This document shows positions 48,114-58,836 of a DNA stretch of 64,000 nucleotides, piece by piece. The stretch's first letter is position 1. Each line of letters starts with the position of its first letter. Source of the DNA: Phocaeicola massiliensis B84634 = Timone 84634 = DSM 17679 = JCM 13223 (GTDB taxonomy: Bacteria > Bacteroidota > Bacteroidia > Bacteroidales > Bacteroidaceae); assembly GCF_000382445.1 (NCBI RefSeq), contig NZ_KB905475.1, positions 62,001 through 126,000 of the forward strand, written 5' to 3'. The position numbers were made by a program, and so were the translations under genes. Under the pieces are notes generated by a model. It was not told where the DNA came from and did no database searches. It worked only from the letters and a program-made list of their open reading frames with translations.

Positions 48114-48131
48114 TGATAGATGTATTTCCAA

Positions 48132-48473
48132 GAATAAAATTCATTCTAAGCCTGTTTAAAACAGGGTGGCAATATATAACAAAAGCATGGAACCTGCAAG
48201 AAAGAAAGCGAAAATCTGTTTCTCCCTTCCTCCTTTCATTAGTCGTTGAAACGCCCTGTTAATGGGGCTTCCGGTAGTGAATGGACATTCCGTATTGTCG
48301 TTTCAGCCTCCTTTCATCTGTAATACTTCTTCCGGCTTTTGAACTTTTTCGATAATACTTTACGGTAGGGGCGGACCCATGTGTCCGCCCAATGACCCCA
48401 ATAACTTATTTGACACAACCCCTTTTGACTTATGAGAGTTTCGAGACACCTTCTTTATTGTGTTGGTATGTTT
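48132..48473. other. Intergenic region with a degenerate repeat half-element
   Basis: No gene is visible. The region contains the hairpin and terminal motif at 48369-48424, listed separately. Confidence 0.6.
48369..48424. repeat. Hairpin plus terminal motif related to the 140-bp element
   Basis: GGGCGGAC (48369-48376) pairs with GTCCGCCC (48383-48390) and TTTGACACAACCCC follows about 18 bp later. The terminal part matches the flank of the mini copy at 44679 (GGGGTTGTGTCAAAAC reversed). I read it as a decayed or half element. Confidence 0.5.
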
Positions 48474-50230
48474 TTATGGAATCATTATTTTCTGATGCCG
48501 CACTTCCGTTCCGTTCGAAATGCTTAAGTGATAAACTCCCGAAGCCCATGAGACTGCATCTATCTTTATTTCAGAAACTCCCATGGCGTATTCTTTGGAA
48601 TAAAGCACTTGCCGGTTTTCTGTGTAAACTACTACCGATTTGATTTTGACATCTGTTGCTGCATTAAAGACAACAGCTTGTTTTGCTTTTTGGGCAGTCA
48701 AAATGGCGTTTACTTCTGCATTGTCGGTTTTCACTACACCAATGGCAACTTCACCCAAAGCTACATTGACATCATAATAATAGTTCGTCACTTGGCAAGG
48801 AATGACGAAAAACGATTCTGCCGTGCCACAGGCATCTTTGGCCCGAATATACAAATCCCTTTCGCAGTCGGCGGGTGTCAACGAAAATGTTTTGCCACGC
48901 ACAAGGCGATTACTTGCTGTGGTACACATAAAGTCAGCTCCCGGAAGAGCATCCGATGTGTTTCCTGCCTTGTCTCTATATTCCAGGCTCAGGTTGATGT
49001 TTCCGGATACATAGAGGGTTCGCCATAGTTTGTGGCATCGGTAATGCTGTATTGCCCTTGGTTGGTTTCCCAATACAAGCTTCCGATGTAGGGAGATGGT
49101 TCATTGCAAGTGGCATGGGTTGTGACAGACTTGGTTCCGGCAGGCGATGTGATGGAAGCCACGATACTGTAATAGGTTGGCTGGGTGGAAGACAAAGTCA
49201 ATGTAGAAGTGGTATAGGTGGTTTTGGTAGAACCGTTTTCACTGTAGGCCGTTACTTCCCATCTCACGCTTTCATCGGCATTTAATACACTCAGCGAGTA
49301 GGTACCGCTGTTGGAGAAATGTTTGGGACCGATAATCTGTTTTTGATGAATAGTGGGGCTTACTTCTTCTCTTTGGCTAATGATGCTGCGCATTTTGGCT
49401 ATTTGCTCTGCAGAGAATTTGTGTCTATAATAACCATTATAACTCATTAGATTTTTTGGATCCGGGTTATAAAAGTCACCATTGGCATCTGTTCCTGTGC
49501 CTATGTATTCTCCAAAAATATTCCATTCACAAGGATCGGCGGGAGTATCGGTCATATAATCGCCGGCTGTTGCCGAATTACTTCCATTTACAAGTTCTGC
49601 TTTTCCTCCCTCAGAATCTTTTGCAGTACCATGGTGCGTGTGGTATAATCCGAAGCAGTGGCCTAGTTCATGTGGTACAGTAGTTTCTGTATAGTAAGTT
49701 GATTGTATAACACAGGCAGAACTTACAATCCCATTTGCTATTCCTGTAGTATTGTTCCAATTTTTCCCACTTGATAACACATAAATATCAATAGCATTGT
49801 TATGTGAATTCTGTTTGCAAATTTCTTTATAGATAGATAATGTTGAATTATTATATCGGTCAGAATCAATATAGTCACTTCCTAATAAATAGAAATTGAT
49901 TTTTGCAGAAGCGTAATAACCATTTAAATTAGTTATGACTGTTTGCGCTACTTCCTCTTTATTAAATCCCACTCCGCTAGAACTTCTAATGACATGGATA
50001 TAAATATTTAAGGTATAAATGCTATTGTTATTAAAAACGCGAGGAGTATTGAAATACCATGCCGGTGGGTCTGTTTCTATCGTTCCACAAGAAAAACTTT
50101 CAGGGATTGAACGGCTGACAATGTTTGAAGGAGATTCTTCTGTAGAAGTCATTTCCTCTAGTTCTTCACTGCAACCATATAGACAAGTAGCCGTGCATAA
50201 TGCAAGCAGATAAGTAAAAAGTTTGTTCAT
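48474..50230 (-). pseudogene. M43-type zinc metalloprotease, frameshifted near 49006-49033
   Basis: Starting at 50230, a lipoprotein signal (MNKLFTYLLALCTATCLYGC) precedes a pappalysin/ulilysin-like M43 catalytic domain: zinc motif HELGHCFGLYHTHHG (first His about 187) and Met-turn NLMSYNGYYRHKFS (about 262). The frame then runs through Ig-like sequence and stops at 48989 after NYGEPSMYPETST. In the -1 frame coding continues (TLYVSGNINLSLEYRDKAGN...) to 48474, ending VYHLSISNGTEVRHQKIMIP, which looks like a T9SS type A sorting domain. One missing base in the overlap explains both halves. It may be a broken gene, a phase-variable one, or a sequencing error. The protease domain itself is intact. 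A small lipoprotein gene lies 36 bp upstream. Confidence 0.8.
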
Positions 50231-50266
50231 AGTATTATGCATTTAAAATTAATTGTTTCGTATCAA

Positions 50267-50680
50267 TTAGTAGGGACTTTCTGCCGGTTCTCTTTTCTGA
50301 ATGTCTTTTAGATGGAGAGAGTAAATGTAAGTACCACCATGGCAACCTGTTATAGGCAATCTCGCTTCATAATATAAATATAAAAGGGTGCCACTGAAGG
50401 TAACATCACCTTCATAAGCCTTGTATTCATCCTTCATGTTTTCAATTAAAAAAGATATACTATCTTCATCTCCTGTTCGGAATTCCGGTTCGTCAACAGG
50501 ATAGATTATCCATCTTTTAAGGGAATTATCATACCTTAAATATCCTTTCAAATTCTCTCTTTCAAAAGGTTCTTGTTTTTCCTCCGGATAAATCCGTTTT
50601 ACATCTCTGTCATCATCGCTGCAACCGTATGCTCCAACGAGCAGGCATAACACGAATAAATAATTTAAAATCTTCTTCAT
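50267..50680 (-). CDS. Small lipoprotein beside the M43 protease, possible inhibitor
   Basis: A 137-residue lipoprotein (MKKILNYLFVLCLLVGAYGC, Cys 20). The mature part is acidic at first (SDDDRDVKRIYPEEKQE) and then beta-rich: GYLRYDNSLKRWIIYPV, AYEGDVTFSGTLLYLYY, and GTYIYSLHLKDIQK. It precedes the protease gene by 36 bp on the same strand, so the two are probably one operon. Small beta-barrel lipoproteins next to secreted proteases are known inhibitors in relatives (potempins with KLIKK proteases of Tannerella, Spi-like inhibitors with C10 proteases of Bacteroides). That role is inferred here. The start at 50680 replaces 50872, which lacks a signal peptide. Confidence 0.65.
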   Translation of the reverse strand: MKKILNYLFVLCLLVGAYGCSDDDRDVKRIYPEEKQEPFERENLKGYLRYDNSLKRWIIYPVDEPEFRTGDEDSISFLIENMKDEYKAYEGDVTFSGTLLYLYYEARLPITGCHGGTYIYSLHLKDIQKREPAESPY

Positions 50681-50854
50681 AAAGGTGGTGATTAAAAGGT
50701 TAATAATGGTTTTCTTGTATTTTATATAATGCAGCAGAATGTAAAATACTGCGTCTGGTTGTATGATTTTTTTAAATGCATTGATAATAAATGATTTATA
50801 AAGTAGCACCAAAATTAAAGAGCTTTCGAATGAAACTTGAACAGGCTCTAAAAG

Positions 50855-50938
50855 ACTAAAGTGTTTTATCAAAAGATTAAGGAGTTTTTAGCAAATACCT
50901 TAGTCTTTTTTTTAAACTCCAAGGCCTTTTGGGAGGGG
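50855..50938. repeat. 21-bp-period degenerate repeat, locus 2 (4 units)
   Basis: Four consecutive units of exactly 21 bp (50855-50875, 50876-50896, 50897-50917, 50918-50938), for example ending ATCAAAAG, AGCAAAT and TTTAAAC. Same pattern and orientation as loci 1 and 3. It lies in the upstream region of the small lipoprotein. Confidence 0.75.
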
Positions 50939-51468
50939 CGTTATAGTGCTGAAAAACGAACTTAATATGTTGATAAGCAATGCTTTGGATACTTGTTTCT
51001 GTCTAGTTGGAAAATGGTGCTGGGTTTGCAAAGTGGTGATGTAGTCAAAGTGTTGAATAACAGTGTGTTGACTGTCTTATTTAGGCTCACTAGGTCCAGG
51101 GACCACCTTTATGCTTTTGTGACCCCGAATTTGTGCTCTTGAAAGAGGTTATTTTGTTGTTTATCAGTGTTTTTTCTTTGTTAAAAGCGGACAAACCATA
51201 GTCTTTATGAGAAATAAGTATACATTTCAATCATATTGTCACGTTTCTTGCATTTTGCTTGTAGGGGCAGGCTGAAAAGAGGTGTAGAAAGTACACAAGG
51301 GATTGTGAAGGGACTCGGGAAGCGCGGCTGAAGGGAGGATGAGGGGATGTGCTGTCATTCTTAACCGACTGATTATGTGAGTATTTTAATTAAAATGTAA
51401 GGATGAACGGAAAAGAAGGATGACCGGCTTAATGAGGGGATGATGCAATCTGCCCCTACATGAAAAAC

Positions 51469-51594
51469 ATACCGAGCTTTATTAAAAAGATGCCGAGCTT
51501 TTCTGAAAACACAACGACCTTTTTTAAAAAGACTTTGAGGCTTTTTTTAAACATCAAGGTCTTTTTGGAAAACATCAAAGTCTTTTTTGCAGCA
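51469..51594. repeat. 21-bp-period degenerate repeat, locus 3 (6 units)
   Basis: Six consecutive units of exactly 21 bp: 51469-51489, 51490-51510, 51511-51531, 51532-51552, 51553-51573, 51574-51594. The units share a 5' ATCAAGG or ATGCCGAG-like head, a central TCTTTTTT and a final GAAAAC. Because 21 is divisible by 3, a heptad-like frame appears (IPSFIKK, MPSFSEN, IKVFLEN), which is probably not a gene. A 140-bp element starts 8 bp later. Confidence 0.85.
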
Positions 51595-51602
51595 TGGGAA
51601 GT

Positions 51603-51742
51603 GTGTCAAAACGAAACCGGGCTATCCCATCGTCAGTTGTAGGGGCAGGGTTCGCCTGCCCGAAGACACAAAACAAACCGTTTTCGGGCGAGCAAACCTC
51701 GCCCCTACGCACGAAACGACAGCATTATCCACATTTTGACCC
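51603..51742. repeat. 140-bp dispersed inverted-repeat element, copy B
   Basis: Bounded by GTGTCAAAAC and ATTTTGACCC. It has the same two hairpins as copy A (GGGGCAGG.. CCTGCCCG and CGGGCGAG.. CTCGCCCC) and the same total length, with only scattered substitutions. Confidence 0.85.
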
Positions 51743-51748
51743 CCGTAG

Positions 51749-51836
51749 GCATCGGTCTACACATACGGTGGCATAAGCCCACACGTACGTACGCATCGGC
51801 CTACACGTACGTACGCATGAGCCTGCACGTATATAT
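51749..51836. repeat. 22-bp tandem repeat, 4 units
   Basis: Four units of exactly 22 bp begin GCATCGGTCTAC, GCATAAGCCCAC, GCATCGGCCTAC and GCATGAGCCTGC. The last half of each is CACGTACGTAC or a variant, itself rich in the self-complementary ACGTACGT. It is adjacent to copy B. Confidence 0.8.
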
Positions 51837-51954
51837 GTCATTGTGTCAGGCTCCGTCATATTCTGTGCCGGGATTGGATTAGTTTGTCTTCCCTCTTGAC
51901 AAACACTTTTTCATGTTTTATATTTGTAGTTCGTCAAATCTAAAAAAGTGTCTC

Positions 51955-53056
51955 ATGAATGTATTTGCCACCCTCAAAACAGTCTTCTTCGGAAGCAAAT
52001 TCCTGTCAGCTCCTGTTCCCTCCGACGGAACACCACGCCGTGACCTCGTATCCGCCCTCAACGGACTGATGCCGCTTTGTCGGACCATCCCCGGCACCCA
52101 CCTGCGCTACACCAAAGTGGACGAACGATGGATGAACACACTCAGCATAGAAGCCATCGAAACAGGCATAGACTGCTGAGACAGGGATATCCAACGCTTT
52201 GTGCGCTCGCGCCGCATCAGCAAATACCATCCCTTTACAGCCTACTTTGAACAACTTCCCGAATGGGACGGCAAGGACCGCGTATCCGCACTTGCCCGCC
52301 GGGTGTCCGACGACCCGGTATGGGTGAACGGTTTCCACCGCCGGATGTTGGGACTCTCCGCCCAATGGATGCAGTTCCGGTCGGATACCAACAGTACCAA
52401 CAGCGTGGCTCCCCTGCTGGTGAGCAGCCGCCAAGGATTAGGGAAAAGTACGTTCTGCCGCCTACGGCCTGATCAATCTGGATGAATTCGACAAGTTGGG
52501 TGCATCCAAAATGCCCCTGCTGAAGAACCTGATGCAGGCTTCCGCACTGAATATCCGCAAGGCCTACAAACGCAGTGCCTCGGCACTTCCCCGCATCGCC
52601 TCGTTTATCGGCACCAGCAACCGGGAGGACCTGTTGGTGGACCGCACCGGCTCACGCCGCTTTCTCTGTGTCAGCTTGGAGCACGCCATTGACTGCGTCA
52701 CGCCTGTAGAGCATGAGCAACTGTACGCCCAGCTCAAGGCGGAACTTCTGTCCGGTGAACGCGGCTGGTTTAACAAGGAAGAGGAACAGGCCATACAGCA
52801 ACACAACGCCCTGTTCTACAAACATATACCCGAAGAAGAGGTGTTCCGCCTTTGCTTCCGCTTTGCCACCCAAGAGGACCATCCGCAGGAAGTGCTGACC
52901 CTTTCCGCCACCCAATTATTCGAACGCATGAAAGCCACCCACCCTTCGGTCATGAGGGGCATGACCGTCTACAGCCTGAGCCGCATCCTGTCCCGGCTGG
53001 GCGAGCGGGTGCATACTGCCAAGGGGAATGTGTACCGGGTAGTGGAATCGTATTAG
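51955..53056 (+). pseudogene. Decayed VapE/VirE-type P-loop ATPase gene
   Basis: Starting MNVFATLKTVFFGSKF, the sequence follows the Bacteroides VirE/VapE-like helicase-domain proteins (with a C-terminal DUF3874-type region). A TGA at 52177-52179 interrupts the frame. Walker A is visible (SSRQGLGKSTFC), but near 52460 the frame changes and the stretch normally between Walker A and Walker B is gone, continuing at GLINLDEFDKLGASKMPLLK. The C-terminal part (SFIGTSNREDLLVDRTGSRR, GNVYRVVESY) is intact. Such proteins are linked to mobile elements and plasmids. Two independent lesions show that it is no longer functional. Its last 48 bp are repeated at 58762. Confidence 0.85.
53001..53048. repeat. 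48-bp direct repeat flanking the cassette, left copy
   Basis: Starts GCGAGCGGGTGCATACTGCC and continues AAGGGGAATGTGTACCGGGT. It is the 3' end of the VapE-like gene. The right copy is at 58762-58809 with about five differences. Confidence 0.75.
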
Positions 53057-53254
53057 CAATAGTGGAAGCTTTATCAGCGGTTCGTTAGGCTTGTTCATGC
53101 CGGATAAATGCCTGATAAACAACGTAAAATCAATGGGTAACCAGGCTTTGCGGACTTGCCAGTCACCGTAGTAGTATAAAATAGTTTAACAATACATAAT
53201 TGATGGTAAGATAAAAATACCCGGTCTTTAAAAGGCATATCTTTATTAAAGATT
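53057..53254. other. Gap before the peptide gene
   Basis: No gene is seen. TATCTTTA at 53239-53246 resembles the -7 box with one change (final A for G) and would place transcription start close to the ATG at 53255. Confidence 0.35.
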
Positions 53255-53443
53255 ATGAGGAACACAGCAAACATAAATAATATCTCTGGAAGTAACCGAT
53301 TTTTCATGTCTTTACTGTCCCTTGTCTTCTTTTTGTTTGCCATTGCTTGCCGTCCTTTGGCTGCCCGGACTTTTGAGGGAGGAAGACTGACTTCTGCTCT
53401 TTATAATTTGGAGAAACTATTAAAACAACAGCATAAAGAGTAA
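53255..53443 (+). CDS. Short membrane-anchored or secreted peptide, 62 residues
   Basis: The predicted peptide has a polar N-terminus (MRNTANINNISGSNR), one hydrophobic helix (residues about 17-33, FFMSLLSLVFFLFAIAC) and a polar tail (RPLAARTFEGGRLTSALYNL, then EKLLKQQHKE). An internal start at 53306 (MSLLSL) would make a classic leader plus a 30-residue tail. I do not recognise a family. It is 19 bp before the MG2-domain gene and belongs to the same unit. Its shape suggests an exported peptide that the cassette signal peptidase could process; that is inference. Small size keeps confidence modest. Confidence 0.55.
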   Translation: MRNTANINNISGSNRFFMSLLSLVFFLFAIACRPLAARTFEGGRLTSALYNLEKLLKQQHKE

Positions 53444-53462
53444 TCTTTATCATAAAAAAATA

Positions 53463-55781
53463 ATGGAAATGCGGCTTTATAATATAAGGTTATTATTATT
53501 TTTTCTCCTGTATTTGTTTGTTGGTCATACGTTTACTTGCCATTCGCAGGAAGAAACGCCTTCGGAGTGCAGGGAACTTCTATACCTCCAGACAGACAAG
53601 GGGATTTATGAGACCGGTGAAGACCTTTGGTTCAAGACCTACACTTTGGACGCTCAGAGCCTTGCCCTCTCCGACCGAAGCAAGACGCTGTTTGTGGAAA
53701 TGCTCAATGCCAAGGACAGCATCGTGTGGCAGGAGAAATACCCCATCCTTTCCGGCATTACCGAGGGGCACGTCTATGTGGACAAGGACTTGAAGGAGGG
53801 CGATTACCGCATCCATGCCTATACCCGCTTTTCTTTTCTGAATGACACGTTGCGTCCGGTCTATCCCAAGAAGATACGTGTTATAAAGAGCATAGCCTAC
53901 AAAGGAACGAATCCCCCGCAGGAAAAAGACCAACCTGTTGCCCGGTTTTCCTTCTTTCCCGAAGGTGGTTATCTGATTGACGGAATTCCCACCAAGGTGG
54001 CTTTCAAAGTACTGGATGTCAAAGGAATGCCGGCAAAAGTGGCAGGCCGGTTGCTGGAGAATGGTAAGGACATTGCTAAATTAGAGTCCGTGCACGACGG
54101 TATGGGTTTTGTGTTTATCCTTCCGATAAAAGGAGCTTCATATAAGGCGGTGTTGTCCGATGGAAGGGAGTTCCCATTTGCGGAAGTGGTATCTTCGGGG
54201 TTGTCCGTCCATTTGCGTAAACAGACGGATGAGTATCTGGAGTTTCTTCTTTCCCAACCGAAAGGGGCAGCGGCGCAGGCAATCAAGCTGGAAGGCAAAA
54301 TGCGCGGCGGGCTTTGCTGCACGGCAACAGGCACCTTGAGCGAGAGATTGAAAATCCGAATCCCATTGAAAGAGTTTCCGATGCAGGGCATTGCCGAGTT
54401 TACTTTATACAATGCCGATGGTCAGCCCATGGCGGAACGCTTGGTGTATGTCCATCCCGAACGGAAATTGCACATCGAGTTGAACACGGACAGTGCGCGC
54501 TACTTTACCCGTGGCAAGGGCAAACTGAACGTAAAGGTAACGGACGAGAAGGGCAATCCTGTACAGGCGCATCTGGGGCTGAGCATTTTCGACCGTGCTT
54601 ATCAGAATGAACTGAATCCTGAGAATATGCTTTCGTATTGCTACCTTTCCACCGAGATAAAGGGTAATATCCATAATCCGGCGTATTACTTTGATAGCAA
54701 CAACAAAGACCGCCAGGCTGCTCTCGACCTGTTGCTGCTTACCCAAGGGTGGCGCAGGTATGTATGGGAAAAAGCTGATACGGCAATGTTGGCGGACTGT
54801 TTCCTTTCGGATGAAATCAGAGGAAGGCAGATTATCGGTAAGAAAAAGAAGCAGAAAGAGTTGGGAAATGGAGAGCAGTTGCTACAAGTTTCCGGTCCGA
54901 ACACTGAAAACCGTTTTGTGTTTATAGACTCTTTGGGAAAGTTCGTGGTGCCGACGGACTTGATGCTCGGATTGCGAGGCGGATATGTTTATTTGAAGCC
55001 GATGCTGGATAAAGATGAATACAAGCCTTCCATTGTGATAGAAGAATCTTTCAGTAAGGTGGATAGCTTGCGGAAGTCTTGTCAGTCTTATTTCCCATAT
55101 ATGAATCCTTCGCAAGTGTTTTCGGAATTGCAGCTTGATTATCCTGTTATTAGTCAGGATAATAGTATCCTTTTATCCGAGATAACAGTTACAGGTAAGA
55201 AAGGAAGAGTATTTCGGGATAAGATGATGGGAAGGTTAGATAGCTTGGCACAAATGAAGGTTGGAGCAGCATGGGTATGCTCTGGGTGTATATCGGGGGG
55301 AGGTAATATAGAGTACCTTAATGATTATAAAGGTTATTCACATCATCCTATAGGATGTCCGGTACCTCCTCCTGGAAAAATAAGCTCCCCCGTTATCGGT
55401 CGGAAATATTATCTCATAAAATATGAGCCAAAAGGAGAGAATAACAAATGGATTCTAACGAAACTAGACGAGATTATTTGGAAAGGTGAGGAATTTACCG
55501 AAGAAGAACTTCTCCGCATGAACAACCTGTGGCGTGTGAAAGGCTATTACGGCACGCGTGAGTTCTACCAACCCGATGAGCTGGACGTGCAAAGTCCGCT
55601 ACCGGATGCGCGGAACGTCTTGCTGTGGAAACCGGACATTGTCACCGATGAGAAAGGAATAGCCGAAGTAGAATTCTTCTGTTCGGACATCAATACAAGC
55701 TTTGTGGGCGTGGTAGAAGGAACGGATGGCTTAGGAAACTTAGGCACATCTCAGTGCGAGTTTAGGGTACTAAAACCATAA
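53463..55781 (+). CDS. MG2 (macroglobulin-like) domain exported protein
   Basis: A 772-residue exported protein (signal ends about 28, TFTCHSQ). The first domain reads LYLQTDKGIYETGEDLWFKTY, the MG2 beta-sandwich signature of alpha-2-macroglobulin-like proteins, followed by more macroglobulin-type beta domains (RFSFFPEGGYLIDGIPTKVA, MAERLVYVHPERKLHIEL). Residues around 600-650 have CSGCISGGG. No thioester motif is seen. The C-terminal WKPDIVTDEKGIAEVEFFCSD is a further macroglobulin-like segment. Such proteins in Bacteroidota are surface or periplasmic and of unknown role, possibly protease traps or exporter partners. Second gene of the cassette; 11 bp to the next. ATG 53469 is an alternative start. 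Confidence 0.75.
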   Translation: MEMRLYNIRLLLFFLLYLFVGHTFTCHSQEETPSECRELLYLQTDKGIYETGEDLWFKTYTLDAQSLALSDRSKTLFVEMLNAKDSIVWQEKYPILSGITEGHVYVDKDLKEGDYRIHAYTRFSFLNDTLRPVYPKKIRVIKSIAYKGTNPPQEKDQPVARFSFFPEGGYLIDGIPTKVAFKVLDVKGMPAKVAGRLLENGKDIAKLESVHDGMGFVFILPIKGASYKAVLSDGREFPFAEVVSSGLSVHLRKQTDEYLEFLLSQPKGAAAQAIKLEGKMRGGLCCTATGTLSERLKIRIPLKEFPMQGIAEFTLYNADGQPMAERLVYVHPERKLHIELNTDSARYFTRGKGKLNVKVTDEKGNPVQAHLGLSIFDRAYQNELNPENMLSYCYLSTEIKGNIHNPAYYFDSNNKDRQAALDLLLLTQGWRRYVWEKADTAMLADCFLSDEIRGRQIIGKKKKQKELGNGEQLLQVSGPNTENRFVFIDSLGKFVVPTDLMLGLRGGYVYLKPMLDKDEYKPSIVIEESFSKVDSLRKSCQSYFPYMNPSQVFSELQLDYPVISQDNSILLSEITVTGKKGRVFRDKMMGRLDSLAQMKVGAAWVCSGCISGGGNIEYLNDYKGYSHHPIGCPVPPPGKISSPVIGRKYYLIKYEPKGENNKWILTKLDEIIWKGEEFTEEELLRMNNLWRVKGYYGTREFYQPDELDVQSPLPDARNVLLWKPDIVTDEKGIAEVEFFCSDINTSFVGVVEGTDGLGNLGTSQCEFRVLKP

Positions 55782-55792
55782 AAAATGATAGG

Positions 55793-56326
55793 ATGACAAA
55801 ATTAAAAAATAGATGGCTCTTGTGGATATTGCCTTTGGCTTTCTTCGTTTCCTGCAAATCGAATGAAGGACAATGGGAAAACAAGCAAATTTCCTTTCCT
55901 GAAAATATTGTATTTACAAAAGCCGGAAAGGATACGATTTATTTTGATTTTGACAAGTCGAAATGGAAGTTCTTTATTTATGCAGATACAACAGACTGCA
56001 TGGGGTGTAAATTGTATCTGGACAGATGGAGCGATTTGATTGCTAAAATCAAGGCGGACGAGTCATTAAGCAAATCAGTTTCATTTGCTTTCTTCTTGTT
56101 TCCTAATGACGTGGAAGAGATGAAATTTATGCTGGACTGTGATTTACCCGACTATCCGGTCTGTATTGATGCAGATAATCGAATTGGTAGATTGAATGAA
56201 TTTTCTTCTGATAAATATTTTCTATTGGATGAGCATAACCGGGTTGTTTTAGTCGGCAATCCTGTCTCCAGCCCTCAGATGGAAAAATCTTATTGGGATG
56301 AAATTATAGATAAACCTGTCAAATAA
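55793..56326 (+). CDS. Thioredoxin-fold lipoprotein with CxxC
   Basis: A 177-residue lipoprotein (MTKLKNRWLLWILPLAFFVSC, Cys 21). The sequence FFIYADTTDCMGCKLYLDRW (Cys about 69 and 72) resembles a redox-active site on a thioredoxin-like fold, and KYFLLDEHNRVVLVGNPVSS matches the later strands of TlpA/AhpC-type folds. The lipobox at 18-21 places it in the periplasm. It could handle disulfides of the secreted peptide or the Cys-containing MG2 protein. It is 11 bp from the MG2 gene and 8 bp before the signal peptidase gene. Confidence 0.7.
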   Translation: MTKLKNRWLLWILPLAFFVSCKSNEGQWENKQISFPENIVFTKAGKDTIYFDFDKSKWKFFIYADTTDCMGCKLYLDRWSDLIAKIKADESLSKSVSFAFFLFPNDVEEMKFMLDCDLPDYPVCIDADNRIGRLNEFSSDKYFLLDEHNRVVLVGNPVSSPQMEKSYWDEIIDKPVK

Positions 56327-56334
56327 CTATAACC

Positions 56335-57216
56335 ATGAAGAGGGCTCGAAAATGGATGAATAAGGCAGTTAATGCTATCTTTGGTTTGGCCGCGCTGTTG
56401 GTGCTGTATGTTTTGGCGCAAATATTATTGTTCGCTACATTCAAAATTCCCAGTGACTCGATGGAGCCTACATTGATAGAAGGGGATGTCATATCTGTCT
56501 GTAAACCGGCTTTAGGCGCACGGATATTTAACATTTGGACTGCTCTGAAAGGCGAAGAGGTTGACGTATACAGATTGTCTGGCTTTTCTAAGGTCAGAAG
56601 GGATGATATCTTGGTTTTTAATTTTCCTTATTCGGAGTGGAATCAATGGGATGAGAATATGAAAATGAACATATCAAACTATTATGTAAAGCGTTGTGTG
56701 GCTGTCCCCGGAGATACTCTGTTTATCCATGACGGAATCTATATGATTGGTGATGGGAATGTATTGGCCGGCAATATTGAATCTCAAAAGCGAATCATGA
56801 AATTTAATCCTGATAATATTCCTGACGACCAATATTACACGCTTCCTTTCGACAGCATTGTCCGATGGAACATCAGAGAGTTCGGTCCTTTTTATATACC
56901 GGGAAAGAACGATTCCATTCCAATGAACAGAACAAACTACCTTCTGTACAAAAAAATAATAGTGTGGGAACAGGGTGAGGAAGTGCTGTTTCAGGATGAG
57001 AAAGTTTATTTGGGCAATAAAGAATTGGACGGATATCGTTTTAAGAGCAATTATTATTTCATGAGTGGGGACAATAGCATGAATTCCGTAGATTCGCGTT
57101 TTTGGGGATTGATACCTGAAGACTTTATTGTGGGAAAGGCCACCCTGGTCATTACTTCGCGCAGCCGTGATACGGGAAAGATACGTTGGAACAGAGTATT
57201 TAAAAGAATAGAGTAG
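56335..57216 (+). CDS. lepB: Accessory signal peptidase I
   Basis: A 293-residue S26 leader peptidase with one N-terminal membrane helix (about 13-35). The catalytic Ser about 42 is in KIPSDSMEPTLIEGD and the general-base Lys about 119 in YYVKRCVAVPGDTLF. The box E region is FMSGDNSMNSVDSRFWGLIP. Its place inside a cassette with an exported peptide and other secreted proteins suggests a dedicated processing enzyme in addition to the housekeeping copy. It is 8 bp after the thioredoxin-fold gene, and the next gene starts almost at once. Confidence 0.9.
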   Translation: MKRARKWMNKAVNAIFGLAALLVLYVLAQILLFATFKIPSDSMEPTLIEGDVISVCKPALGARIFNIWTALKGEEVDVYRLSGFSKVRRDDILVFNFPYSEWNQWDENMKMNISNYYVKRCVAVPGDTLFIHDGIYMIGDGNVLAGNIESQKRIMKFNPDNIPDDQYYTLPFDSIVRWNIREFGPFYIPGKNDSIPMNRTNYLLYKKIIVWEQGEEVLFQDEKVYLGNKELDGYRFKSNYYFMSGDNSMNSVDSRFWGLIPEDFIVGKATLVITSRSRDTGKIRWNRVFKRIE

Positions 57217-57220
57217 TGTG

Positions 57221-58717
57221 ATGAGAATTATAACCTATATAATATTGTCGTGCTTTATAGCTGCTTGTTCGCAAAGCCGTAGCGGTGGTGAACTCGAGCA
57301 AGCCTTGAAGCTGTCTGGAGAAAACCGCAATGCGTTAGAGGCAGTTCTTGGCCATTACAAGCACGATTCTTTAAAATACCGGGCATCCTGCTTCCTTATC
57401 AAGAATATGCCTTATCATTATTCGCAGGAAGACTATTATTTATCGCCGGAAGGGGAAAAATATAGGCCTGATATATGCAAGTTCAAGAACAAGGAAGAAC
57501 TGGGAATGCATTGCGACTCATTGACACGGTGTGGGTATCTGGAAAAACATGATATGATATATGATGTCCTCTCTGTTAACAGTTCTTTTCTGATTAAGAA
57601 TATAGATTTGGCTTTCATGGCATGGGAAAAGCCTTGGGCAAGGGATGTGCCTTTTGAAGTGTTTTGCGCATATATACTTCCTTACAGGGTGCAAACGGAG
57701 CAAATATCTTTCTTGCGTGAAGAGATGATGAAGCGGTTCTTGCCTTTGTTGGATTCCGCAGGAGTAAAGACACCGCTGGAAGCTTGCGTGGCATTGAATG
57801 AACATTTAAAATCGGTTGTAAGATACCAAGATACCGGCCTGCCTTTCTATCCGACCATCGAAGAGACTTATCAGTCCGGAATTAGCCGCTGTGACGGCAT
57901 TTGCAATTTGGGTACATTTATAATGCGTGCGATAGGTATACCTGTTGCCGTTGATTTTACCATTTGGCCGAAAATGGATTTGGGGCATAGCTGGTGCGCG
58001 GTTTGGAATGACGGACGATTTTATAGCTTTGGTCCCGGAGAAGACCAGCCGGAAGTCCATGCAAGAATGTTTTCTCAAAAACGGCACAGAAGGCCTGCCA
58101 AGGTTTACCGTTACCAATTCAATCCTTTGCATTACGGCAAGATTTCTTCGACAGGCGGTTATCAGACATTCCTCAATACTCCTTTATGGCGTGATGTAAC
58201 CCATGAATATCTTGATAAAACAACCGAATTTGAAGTACCTATCTTGGACAAGGAAAAAAACAATCTTCACGACAAGGCCTATTTGTGCGTACATAATTAT
58301 TATGAATGGAAACCATTGGCTGTTGGCTCATATTTAGAAAACGGGATGTGTTCTTTTAAAAATGTGGTGGGTGATAATATCTTTATGGTAGCTGACGTAA
58401 CAGACAATGGTGCTTTACGTTACCTGACCGCTCCTTTTTATGTGAGTTCAAATGGTGAAGTGCATTTGTTTATACCCCGGTCAGACCAAAAGTTCAGTTA
58501 TACATTCGATAAGAAAAAAAGAAGTAGGAATTATACATTGCACTATTGGGATGTTGATAGGGAATCCTTTGTATCCATTCCTTGCAAAAGCTCAACAGAT
58601 TCTACGCAAACATACGAACAGATACCAGAAAATGCATTATATTGGTTGACTTTGCCCGAACGGATAGTGAACCAAAGAGTGTTTTTTATAGAGCAGGATA
58701 CCATAAGAAGGTATTAA
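57221..58717 (+). CDS. Transglutaminase-like lipoprotein
   Basis: A 498-residue lipoprotein (MRIITYIILSCFIAACSQS, Cys 16). A papain-like transglutaminase core is visible: RCDGICNLGTFIMRAIGIPV (catalytic Cys probably about 228, with another at 224), MDLGHSWCAVW (His), and the acidic SFGPGEDQPE. The N-terminal 180 residues are helical; the C-terminal 200 are beta-rich. Bacterial members are peptidases or cross-linking enzymes of the periplasm. In this cassette it may process or cross-link the peptide or MG2 protein. A GTG at 57218 is an alternative start. It is the last gene before the right-hand direct repeat. Confidence 0.78.
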   Translation: MRIITYIILSCFIAACSQSRSGGELEQALKLSGENRNALEAVLGHYKHDSLKYRASCFLIKNMPYHYSQEDYYLSPEGEKYRPDICKFKNKEELGMHCDSLTRCGYLEKHDMIYDVLSVNSSFLIKNIDLAFMAWEKPWARDVPFEVFCAYILPYRVQTEQISFLREEMMKRFLPLLDSAGVKTPLEACVALNEHLKSVVRYQDTGLPFYPTIEETYQSGISRCDGICNLGTFIMRAIGIPVAVDFTIWPKMDLGHSWCAVWNDGRFYSFGPGEDQPEVHARMFSQKRHRRPAKVYRYQFNPLHYGKISSTGGYQTFLNTPLWRDVTHEYLDKTTEFEVPILDKEKNNLHDKAYLCVHNYYEWKPLAVGSYLENGMCSFKNVVGDNIFMVADVTDNGALRYLTAPFYVSSNGEVHLFIPRSDQKFSYTFDKKKRSRNYTLHYWDVDRESFVSIPCKSSTDSTQTYEQIPENALYWLTLPERIVNQRVFFIEQDTIRRY

Positions 58718-58748
58718 ACAGTTGAGAACCTCAGGAGGTGCAGAGCCT

Positions 58749-58808
58749 TTCCACCACCCGGCCGAGCGGGTACATACCGCTAAGGGGAATGTGTACCGGG
58801 TGGTGGAA
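58749..58808. other. 13-bp inverted repeat around the right junction
   Basis: TTCCACCACCCGG (58749-58761) pairs perfectly with CCGGGTGGTGGAA (58796-58808), looping out 34 bases that belong to the VapE-derived repeat. It may be a terminator-like structure or a recombination site. Confidence 0.55.
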
Positions 58809-58809
58809 T
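58762..58809. repeat. 48-bp direct repeat flanking the cassette, right copy
   Basis: CCGAGCGGGTACATACCGCT then AAGGGGAATGTGTACCGGGT, matching 53001-53048 with about five changes. It is in no gene here. Confidence 0.75.
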
Positions 58810-58836
58810 GCTAGGCAGGATACTCTTTGAGAATGT

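Follow-up and report, generated by a model that had tools for sequence, protein, structure and literature searches.

The five-gene cassette in the window (the whole 64,000-nt stretch of Phocaeicola massiliensis DNA analyzed here) can be read, with an even chance of being right in our judgment, as a pared-down version, carried on an island, of a cell-envelope operon that recurs in Bacteroidales and acts on peptides, the island being derived from two vapE copies. Under this reading, the operon would combine two lipoproteins, one with a CxxC motif and one transglutaminase-like, with a private signal peptidase I and a macroglobulin core that lacks the thioester; some of its relatives adjoin DUF4221 proteins and cysteine-rich propeptides. 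The reading builds on the gene set, its synteny, the conserved catalytic residues, a predicted macroglobulin fold and a swapped module.

All five genes lie on the plus strand: a 62-aa hydrophobic ORF (53255-53443), present in the ORF list and with 9 homologues found; a predicted thioester-less macroglobulin-core protein of 772 aa (53463-55781) with a signal-peptide-like N-terminus; a CxxC thioredoxin-like lipoprotein of 177 aa (55793-56326); a short, dedicated signal peptidase I of 293 aa (56335-57216); and a transglutaminase-like lipoprotein of 499 aa (57218-58717). A first-pass annotation had placed five same-strand genes between two copies of a vapE gene end, and the ORF list, Pfam and the repeat search confirm this. 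The internal gaps, given there as 2-19 bp, are indeed short but measure, in order, 19, 11, 8 and 1 bp; between the vapE stop and the 62-aa ORF lie 198 bp. The five genes look like one operon.

The three enzyme-like products retain the residues expected to matter. The signal peptidase matches Peptidase_S26 (94.6 bits) and TIGR02227 (101.2 bits against a cut-off of 47), and its S42 and K119, which we take to be the Ser/Lys dyad, are invariant in 6 of 6 aligned sequences. The 499-aa protein matches Transglut_core (32.6 bits) and has a Cys-His pair, with Cys225 invariant and His257 nearly invariant in an alignment of 10. The 177-aa protein has no Pfam match; we call it thioredoxin-like because of its CxxC motif (C69/C72, invariant in 6 of 6 aligned sequences) and the weak NCBIfam StoA_CxxC match of its homologue in locus L048 (E 0.0012), and a lipoprotein from a lipobox judged by eye.

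These three genes keep company far beyond the window, and they do so independently of MG2. When the window locus and its counterpart in P. faecalis are included, 40 of 42 matches to the thioredoxin-like gene lie within 15 kb of a signal peptidase, transglutaminase or NVEALA match, and all three enzyme genes occur within 15 kb of each other at 18 places in 17 genomes. Among the best 40 signal peptidase matches, on which the neighborhood counts are based, the dedicated type lies near the thioredoxin-like gene in 24 and near the transglutaminase gene in 26, compared with 1 of 60 in each case for housekeeping-type signal peptidases. This control set of 60 leaves out nine partial matches (G059:C68, G064:C109, G062:C59, G060:C165, G008:C69, G015:C27, G015:C14, G057:C67 and G054:C30), some of which are fragments of the dedicated type. 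As a further control, lpdA lies near any of the three genes in 2 of 56 cases, namely, the window locus and its P. faecalis counterpart.

The macroglobulin gene (MG2) is more sparsely distributed at close range (E 1e-60 or better in 3 of 61 genomes of the genus, P. massiliensis included), and a scan of named genomes yielded 28 MG2 loci, five of them from P. faecalis. The search for the five-gene order in other Bacteroidota, proposed in the first-pass annotation, turned up the order of the four larger genes: MG2, thioredoxin-like, signal peptidase and transglutaminase genes follow one another in an uncultured Bacteroides (L134) and in Bacteroides oleiciplenus (L136), in both preceded by DUF4221 and a small CHGC-motif gene; in L136, an O-antigen-ligase-like gene and a small gene additionally lie between the signal peptidase and the transglutaminase. 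Locus L133 retains MG2, thioredoxin-like and signal peptidase genes, and in Parabacteroides (L144) a DUF4221-MG2 pair is preceded upstream by transglutaminase and signal peptidase genes. A signal peptidase of the dedicated kind was present in the fetched stretch, which for some contigs was short, at 5 of the 25 loci L133-L157, one of these being P. faecalis; at the remaining loci, the MG2 gene is either solitary or accompanied just by DUF4221. On three contigs of P. faecalis there are five close MG2 copies, of which one is broken; two are at this locus, and two form a tandem separated by a DUF4221 gene. A further copy (51%) lies on a fourth contig. The operon is a variant of a common locus type, for which no description was found in the literature searched; the family names NVEALA and DUF4221 were likewise absent from the open literature searched.

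The 772-aa product was annotated as an MG2-domain protein. The MG2 match is real but, at 30.4 bits, just below the 32.8 cut-off, and the fold match supports a better description: over residues 27-772, the predicted fold matches bacterial and eukaryotic A2M, C3 and C5, as a chain of macroglobulin domains in the key-ring order that defines the A2M superfamily. The match stops before the CUB, TED and C-terminal MG region, the ~770-aa protein ending where bacterial A2M structures reach residue 1012-1020, and the CxEQ thioester motif is present in none of 27 sequences. On these model-based grounds, the protein is a predicted thioester-less macroglobulin core. Near its C-terminal end, a low-confidence stretch (541-600) is followed by a swappable variable module (residues 596-680; 55248-55502, plus strand), which is 32% identical between flanks that are 91% and 98% identical. 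In bacterial A2M, MG8 contains the BRD, according to the available part of PMC4498604.

The peptides that the relatives of the cassette adjoin follow a common plan. NVEALA (PF14055) occurs in at least 34 of the 61 genomes of the genus, and the P. massiliensis genome has 17 matches, 15 of which are among the matches listed; two of its NVEALA loci are L047 and L048, the latter also with a radical SAM gene. In 50 NVEALA peptides, chosen from the fetched loci by motif and length and thus not an independent sample, 19-28 residues (median 24) separate the hydrophobic core from the end of the motif's A-L-A, 44 have Glu at +3, and the tail of 30-64 residues contains at least two Cys in all 50 and an even number in 41. 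In a second class, ANA-C stands at the equivalent position, upstream of DUF4221 (L048, L134, L136, L144), and L090 has an intermediate form, also upstream of DUF4221. By hand count, a Cys-rich propeptide lies just upstream of DUF4221 at 5 of 11 places and is lacking at the other 6; a script had flagged 7 of the 11, of which L043 and L149 were dropped by hand as parts of other genes. This plan would fit cleavage by the signal peptidase well away from the membrane segment and disulfide formation by the CxxC protein. At complete loci, Sec would export the propeptide, the dedicated signal peptidase would cut it after the A-x-A motif, the CxxC lipoprotein would oxidize it, and the transglutaminase-like protein would trim or link it; the macroglobulin core, by means of its variable module, would bind or sense a peptide or a protease.

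The cassette had been interpreted as a system for the export and maturation of a peptide, with the 62-aa ORF as the substrate. The first part finds support in the recurrence of the gene order and in the genus-wide proximity of three of its members to genes for putative secreted peptides, but the second is not supported. The 62-aa ORF matches none of the Pfam families, lacks an NVEALA-type tail and scores 0.0 bits with a profile of the 50 NVEALA peptides, a score equaled by 1934 of 2000 tail shuffles and 76 of 2000 fuller shuffles. It is 96.8% conserved in P. faecalis, compared with 88.4% for the preceding 198 bp; because the codon changes (4 non-synonymous, 2 synonymous) show no protein-level selection, we treat it as a putative coding gene only. 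A search of 48-59 kb by motif and Cys count yielded no candidate ORF of the NVEALA or ANA-C type. With this negative result for the cassette itself, the substrates of the set would be peptides from other loci, for which the 17 NVEALA matches in the genome are candidates.

The cassette occupies the right part of a larger insertion between dacB and lpdA (48114-58836, no strand assigned, limits set at the dacB ATG and the lpdA stop), genes that are adjacent elsewhere in the genus. Among 55 genomes with both genes on one contig and the same strand, the gap is -3 to 160 bp in 54 and 10,708 bp in P. massiliensis, the sole exception; P. faecalis (G015), in which lpdA and dacB are on different contigs, is not part of this count and has both ends of the island, on two contigs. 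A ~50-kb stretch separates two of the macroglobulin genes of P. faecalis (L041 from about 5343 to L042:6657) and includes a gene that, from a reading of the sequence, we labeled integrase-like. In the window, the island begins with the left end of a vapE element (approximately 48203-48355, plus strand, placed by DNA matches to the left ends of other vapE elements), separated by a 2.9-kb inner insertion from the remainder of this element (51266-53056, plus strand), in which vapE is broken. The inner insertion (approximately 48356-51265, minus strand; the vapE element that it interrupts here is contiguous in L061/L062) contains an M43-type metalloprotease gene (48989-50242, Peptidase_M43) and, at 50267-50872, another gene, which is lipoprotein-like. 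P. faecalis has the first vapE as one uninterrupted frame (611 aa), with the 62-aa ORF and MG2 after it.

The cassette lies between direct repeats (52999-53048 and 58760-58809) that are identical at 45 of 50 bases, a match with about 5e-13 expected by chance within 9.5 kb. The repeat is the 3' end of a vapE/DUF3874 gene: VapE-like and DUF3874 Pfam matches cover 52496-53056, the left copy (plus strand) is the end of the first vapE, and the frame is disrupted upstream of it. The first-pass annotation had two 48-bp copies flank the genes; the repeat is real, but the right copy does not stand by itself. Its 31 preceding bases (58729-58759) correspond to vapE sequence from ~90 bp further upstream in other copies, so that, by vapE alignment, 58729-58818 (plus strand) is the remnant of a second vapE with an internal deletion rather than a lone 50-mer. 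The same 15-contig genome has the repeat at six further sites, five near-complete and one partial (at G000:C2, overlapping the last 22 bases only), each of them where another vapE gene or remnant ends. These vapE genes (14 matching pieces in P. massiliensis, 13 in P. faecalis) belong to a common unit of ~2.3-2.6 kb with a conserved left end; for most units, homology runs to the vapE stop or ends no more than about ten bases from it, whereas the C2 remnant and the right copy are alike for some 25 bases past the stop. No second gene of the unit is seen in the ORF lists. The repeats are an ordinary outcome of a multi-copy vapE unit and, judged by sequence comparison, paralogous ends of two vapE elements. 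A long hairpin predicted at the right copy (58735-58835; -44.3 kcal/mol, z -3.34) may terminate transcription between the convergent transglutaminase and lpdA genes.

Several observations concern the surroundings of other vapE copies. The vapE/DUF3874 units at L058-L062, L041 and 48203-53056 of the window represent a possible mobile unit. A protein encoded near a vapE remnant (L063:1614-3821) resembles, as we presume, a peptidase-containing ABC exporter, and of the ORFs downstream of another vapE copy (L059:6152-8482), the third is of the RhuM/Fic type.

Comparison with P. faecalis shows a patchwork. Per 400 bp, identity is 99.75% at 56001-56400 (the thioredoxin-like gene and the start of the signal peptidase gene), 97-98% over 55201-56000, and only 77-91% within the macroglobulin gene (53601-55200), while lpdA is at 95-96%; on this mosaic of identity, the locus has been reshuffled in pieces by recombination. 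At the same spot, P. faecalis has a nucleotidyltransferase/HEPN pair (L042:11215-11876) between two vapE remnants, which is absent from this spot in the window. The vapE copy at this spot in the window matches the first of these remnants on its left side and the second on its right side, as would be expected if recombination between the remnants had deleted the pair; alternatively, the pair arrived later in P. faecalis.

That a single composite segment of 5.8 kb (53.0-58.8 kb) was inserted together with, and bounded by, the 48-bp duplication, as originally proposed, appears very improbable. Two direct copies do flank the five genes, but the single copy predicted for the empty site is found at none of nine empty dacB-lpdA junctions (two with a 2-bp gap), where the best matches are 11 bases long, the very outcome that the first-pass annotation had named as refuting its proposal; insertion with target-site duplication of the repeat was accordingly rejected. 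Moreover, the genome has seven near-complete copies and one partial copy, and the two copies at this locus derive from different vapE genes. Empty sites without the repeat, together with a long gap in P. massiliensis only, indicate that what was inserted is the entire 10.7 kb between dacB and lpdA, and the island would have been assembled from two copies of the vapE element inserted between lpdA and dacB. Less easily dismissed, although still unlikely, is a decaying passenger, in which remains of an operon, dispersed as vapE copies recombined, have little present function. The broken vapE, the mosaic identity, an MG2 fragment elsewhere in the genome (G000:C1:1081007), and, in P. faecalis, the deletion that has left the transglutaminase gene decayed and the broken MG2 copy on contig C24 all fit such a history, the two P. 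faecalis losses also counting against the cell-envelope operon that we favor. That reading further has against it the lack of NVEALA or ANA-C type ORFs in 48-59 kb, the small share of MG2 loci with a dedicated signal peptidase (5 of 25), the restriction of close MG2 homologues to 3 of 61 genomes and the 6 of 11 DUF4221 places that lack a propeptide. However, the four large ORFs are intact, with their catalytic residues, and the best-matching MG2 cluster has 1499 member sequences (best 120 of 1911 matches; the 7998 candidates sharing the most words were scored).

A somewhat better, if doubtful, case can be made for the macroglobulin as the effector, a periplasmic or surface protease trap or sensor that the other three genes only mature; it would be a trap of the Type II A2M kind, with the variable module as a putative bait. 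The predicted fold match to A2M, C3 and C5 and the position of the low-confidence stretch and module, close to where the aligned core ends on its C-terminal side, are compatible with such a role, as is the lack of CxEQ, shared with the protease-trapping Type II A2M described in the part of PMC5764988 at hand. Against this role, the fold match does not extend into the CUB, TED and C-terminal MG region, the module, with its conserved C and H, is a domain and not a simple loop, and several relatives adjoin peptide genes.

The cell-envelope operon that we favor differs from each known system with which we compared it. NVEALA-type loci share the combination of a thioredoxin-like lipoprotein, a dedicated signal peptidase I and a transglutaminase-like lipoprotein; unlike them, the cassette lacks an NVEALA peptide (by motif and Cys count) and a DUF4221 gene, has a macroglobulin core, and its thioredoxin-like protein is without the DUF1573 tail of the L047 and L048 homologues. 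According to the consulted part of PMC5764988, the Type II A2M MagD of the Pseudomonas aeruginosa mag operon, like the window protein, has macroglobulin domains, no CxEQ thioester and an operon setting, and it still traps protease. The window protein, at ~770 aa, leaves no room for CUB, TED and C-terminal MG, and its neighbors are annotated as thioredoxin-like, signal peptidase and transglutaminase genes, the partners in the mag operon being magA, magB, magC, magE and magF. From Type I A2M (E. coli YfhM/ECAM, Salmonella SaA2M), it differs by the absence of CxEQ in 27 of 27 sequences and of TED. Bacteroidetocins are likewise Bacteroidales peptides with cysteines, but have GG leaders and a peptidase-ABC exporter, as far as the accessible text of PMC6671954 goes; the main text of that paper contains none of the strings "signal peptid-", "thioredoxin" and "transglutaminase", and the same holds for PMC10352776, a survey of RiPPs.

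Loci of this class are frequent in the gut genus studied here, and to them the present locus adds a predicted macroglobulin core that bears a swapped module. We consider this its most interesting part; it hints at an arms race or at partner specificity. The peptides of the class offer a testable substrate rule, A-x-A placed 19-28 residues past the hydrophobic core, tied to named enzymes. More speculatively, and rather improbably as we see it, minimal Bacteroidales macroglobulins with a swapped module and helper enzymes could be a bacterial counterpart of complement/A2M logic. If so, a ring without the thioester arm, with a recombination-swapped module at the bait or anaphylatoxin position, would work with a dedicated signal peptidase and with CxxC and transglutaminase-like lipoproteins on disulfide-rich peptides, maturing or sensing them, and would diversify rapidly between neighbors while spreading with vapE elements.
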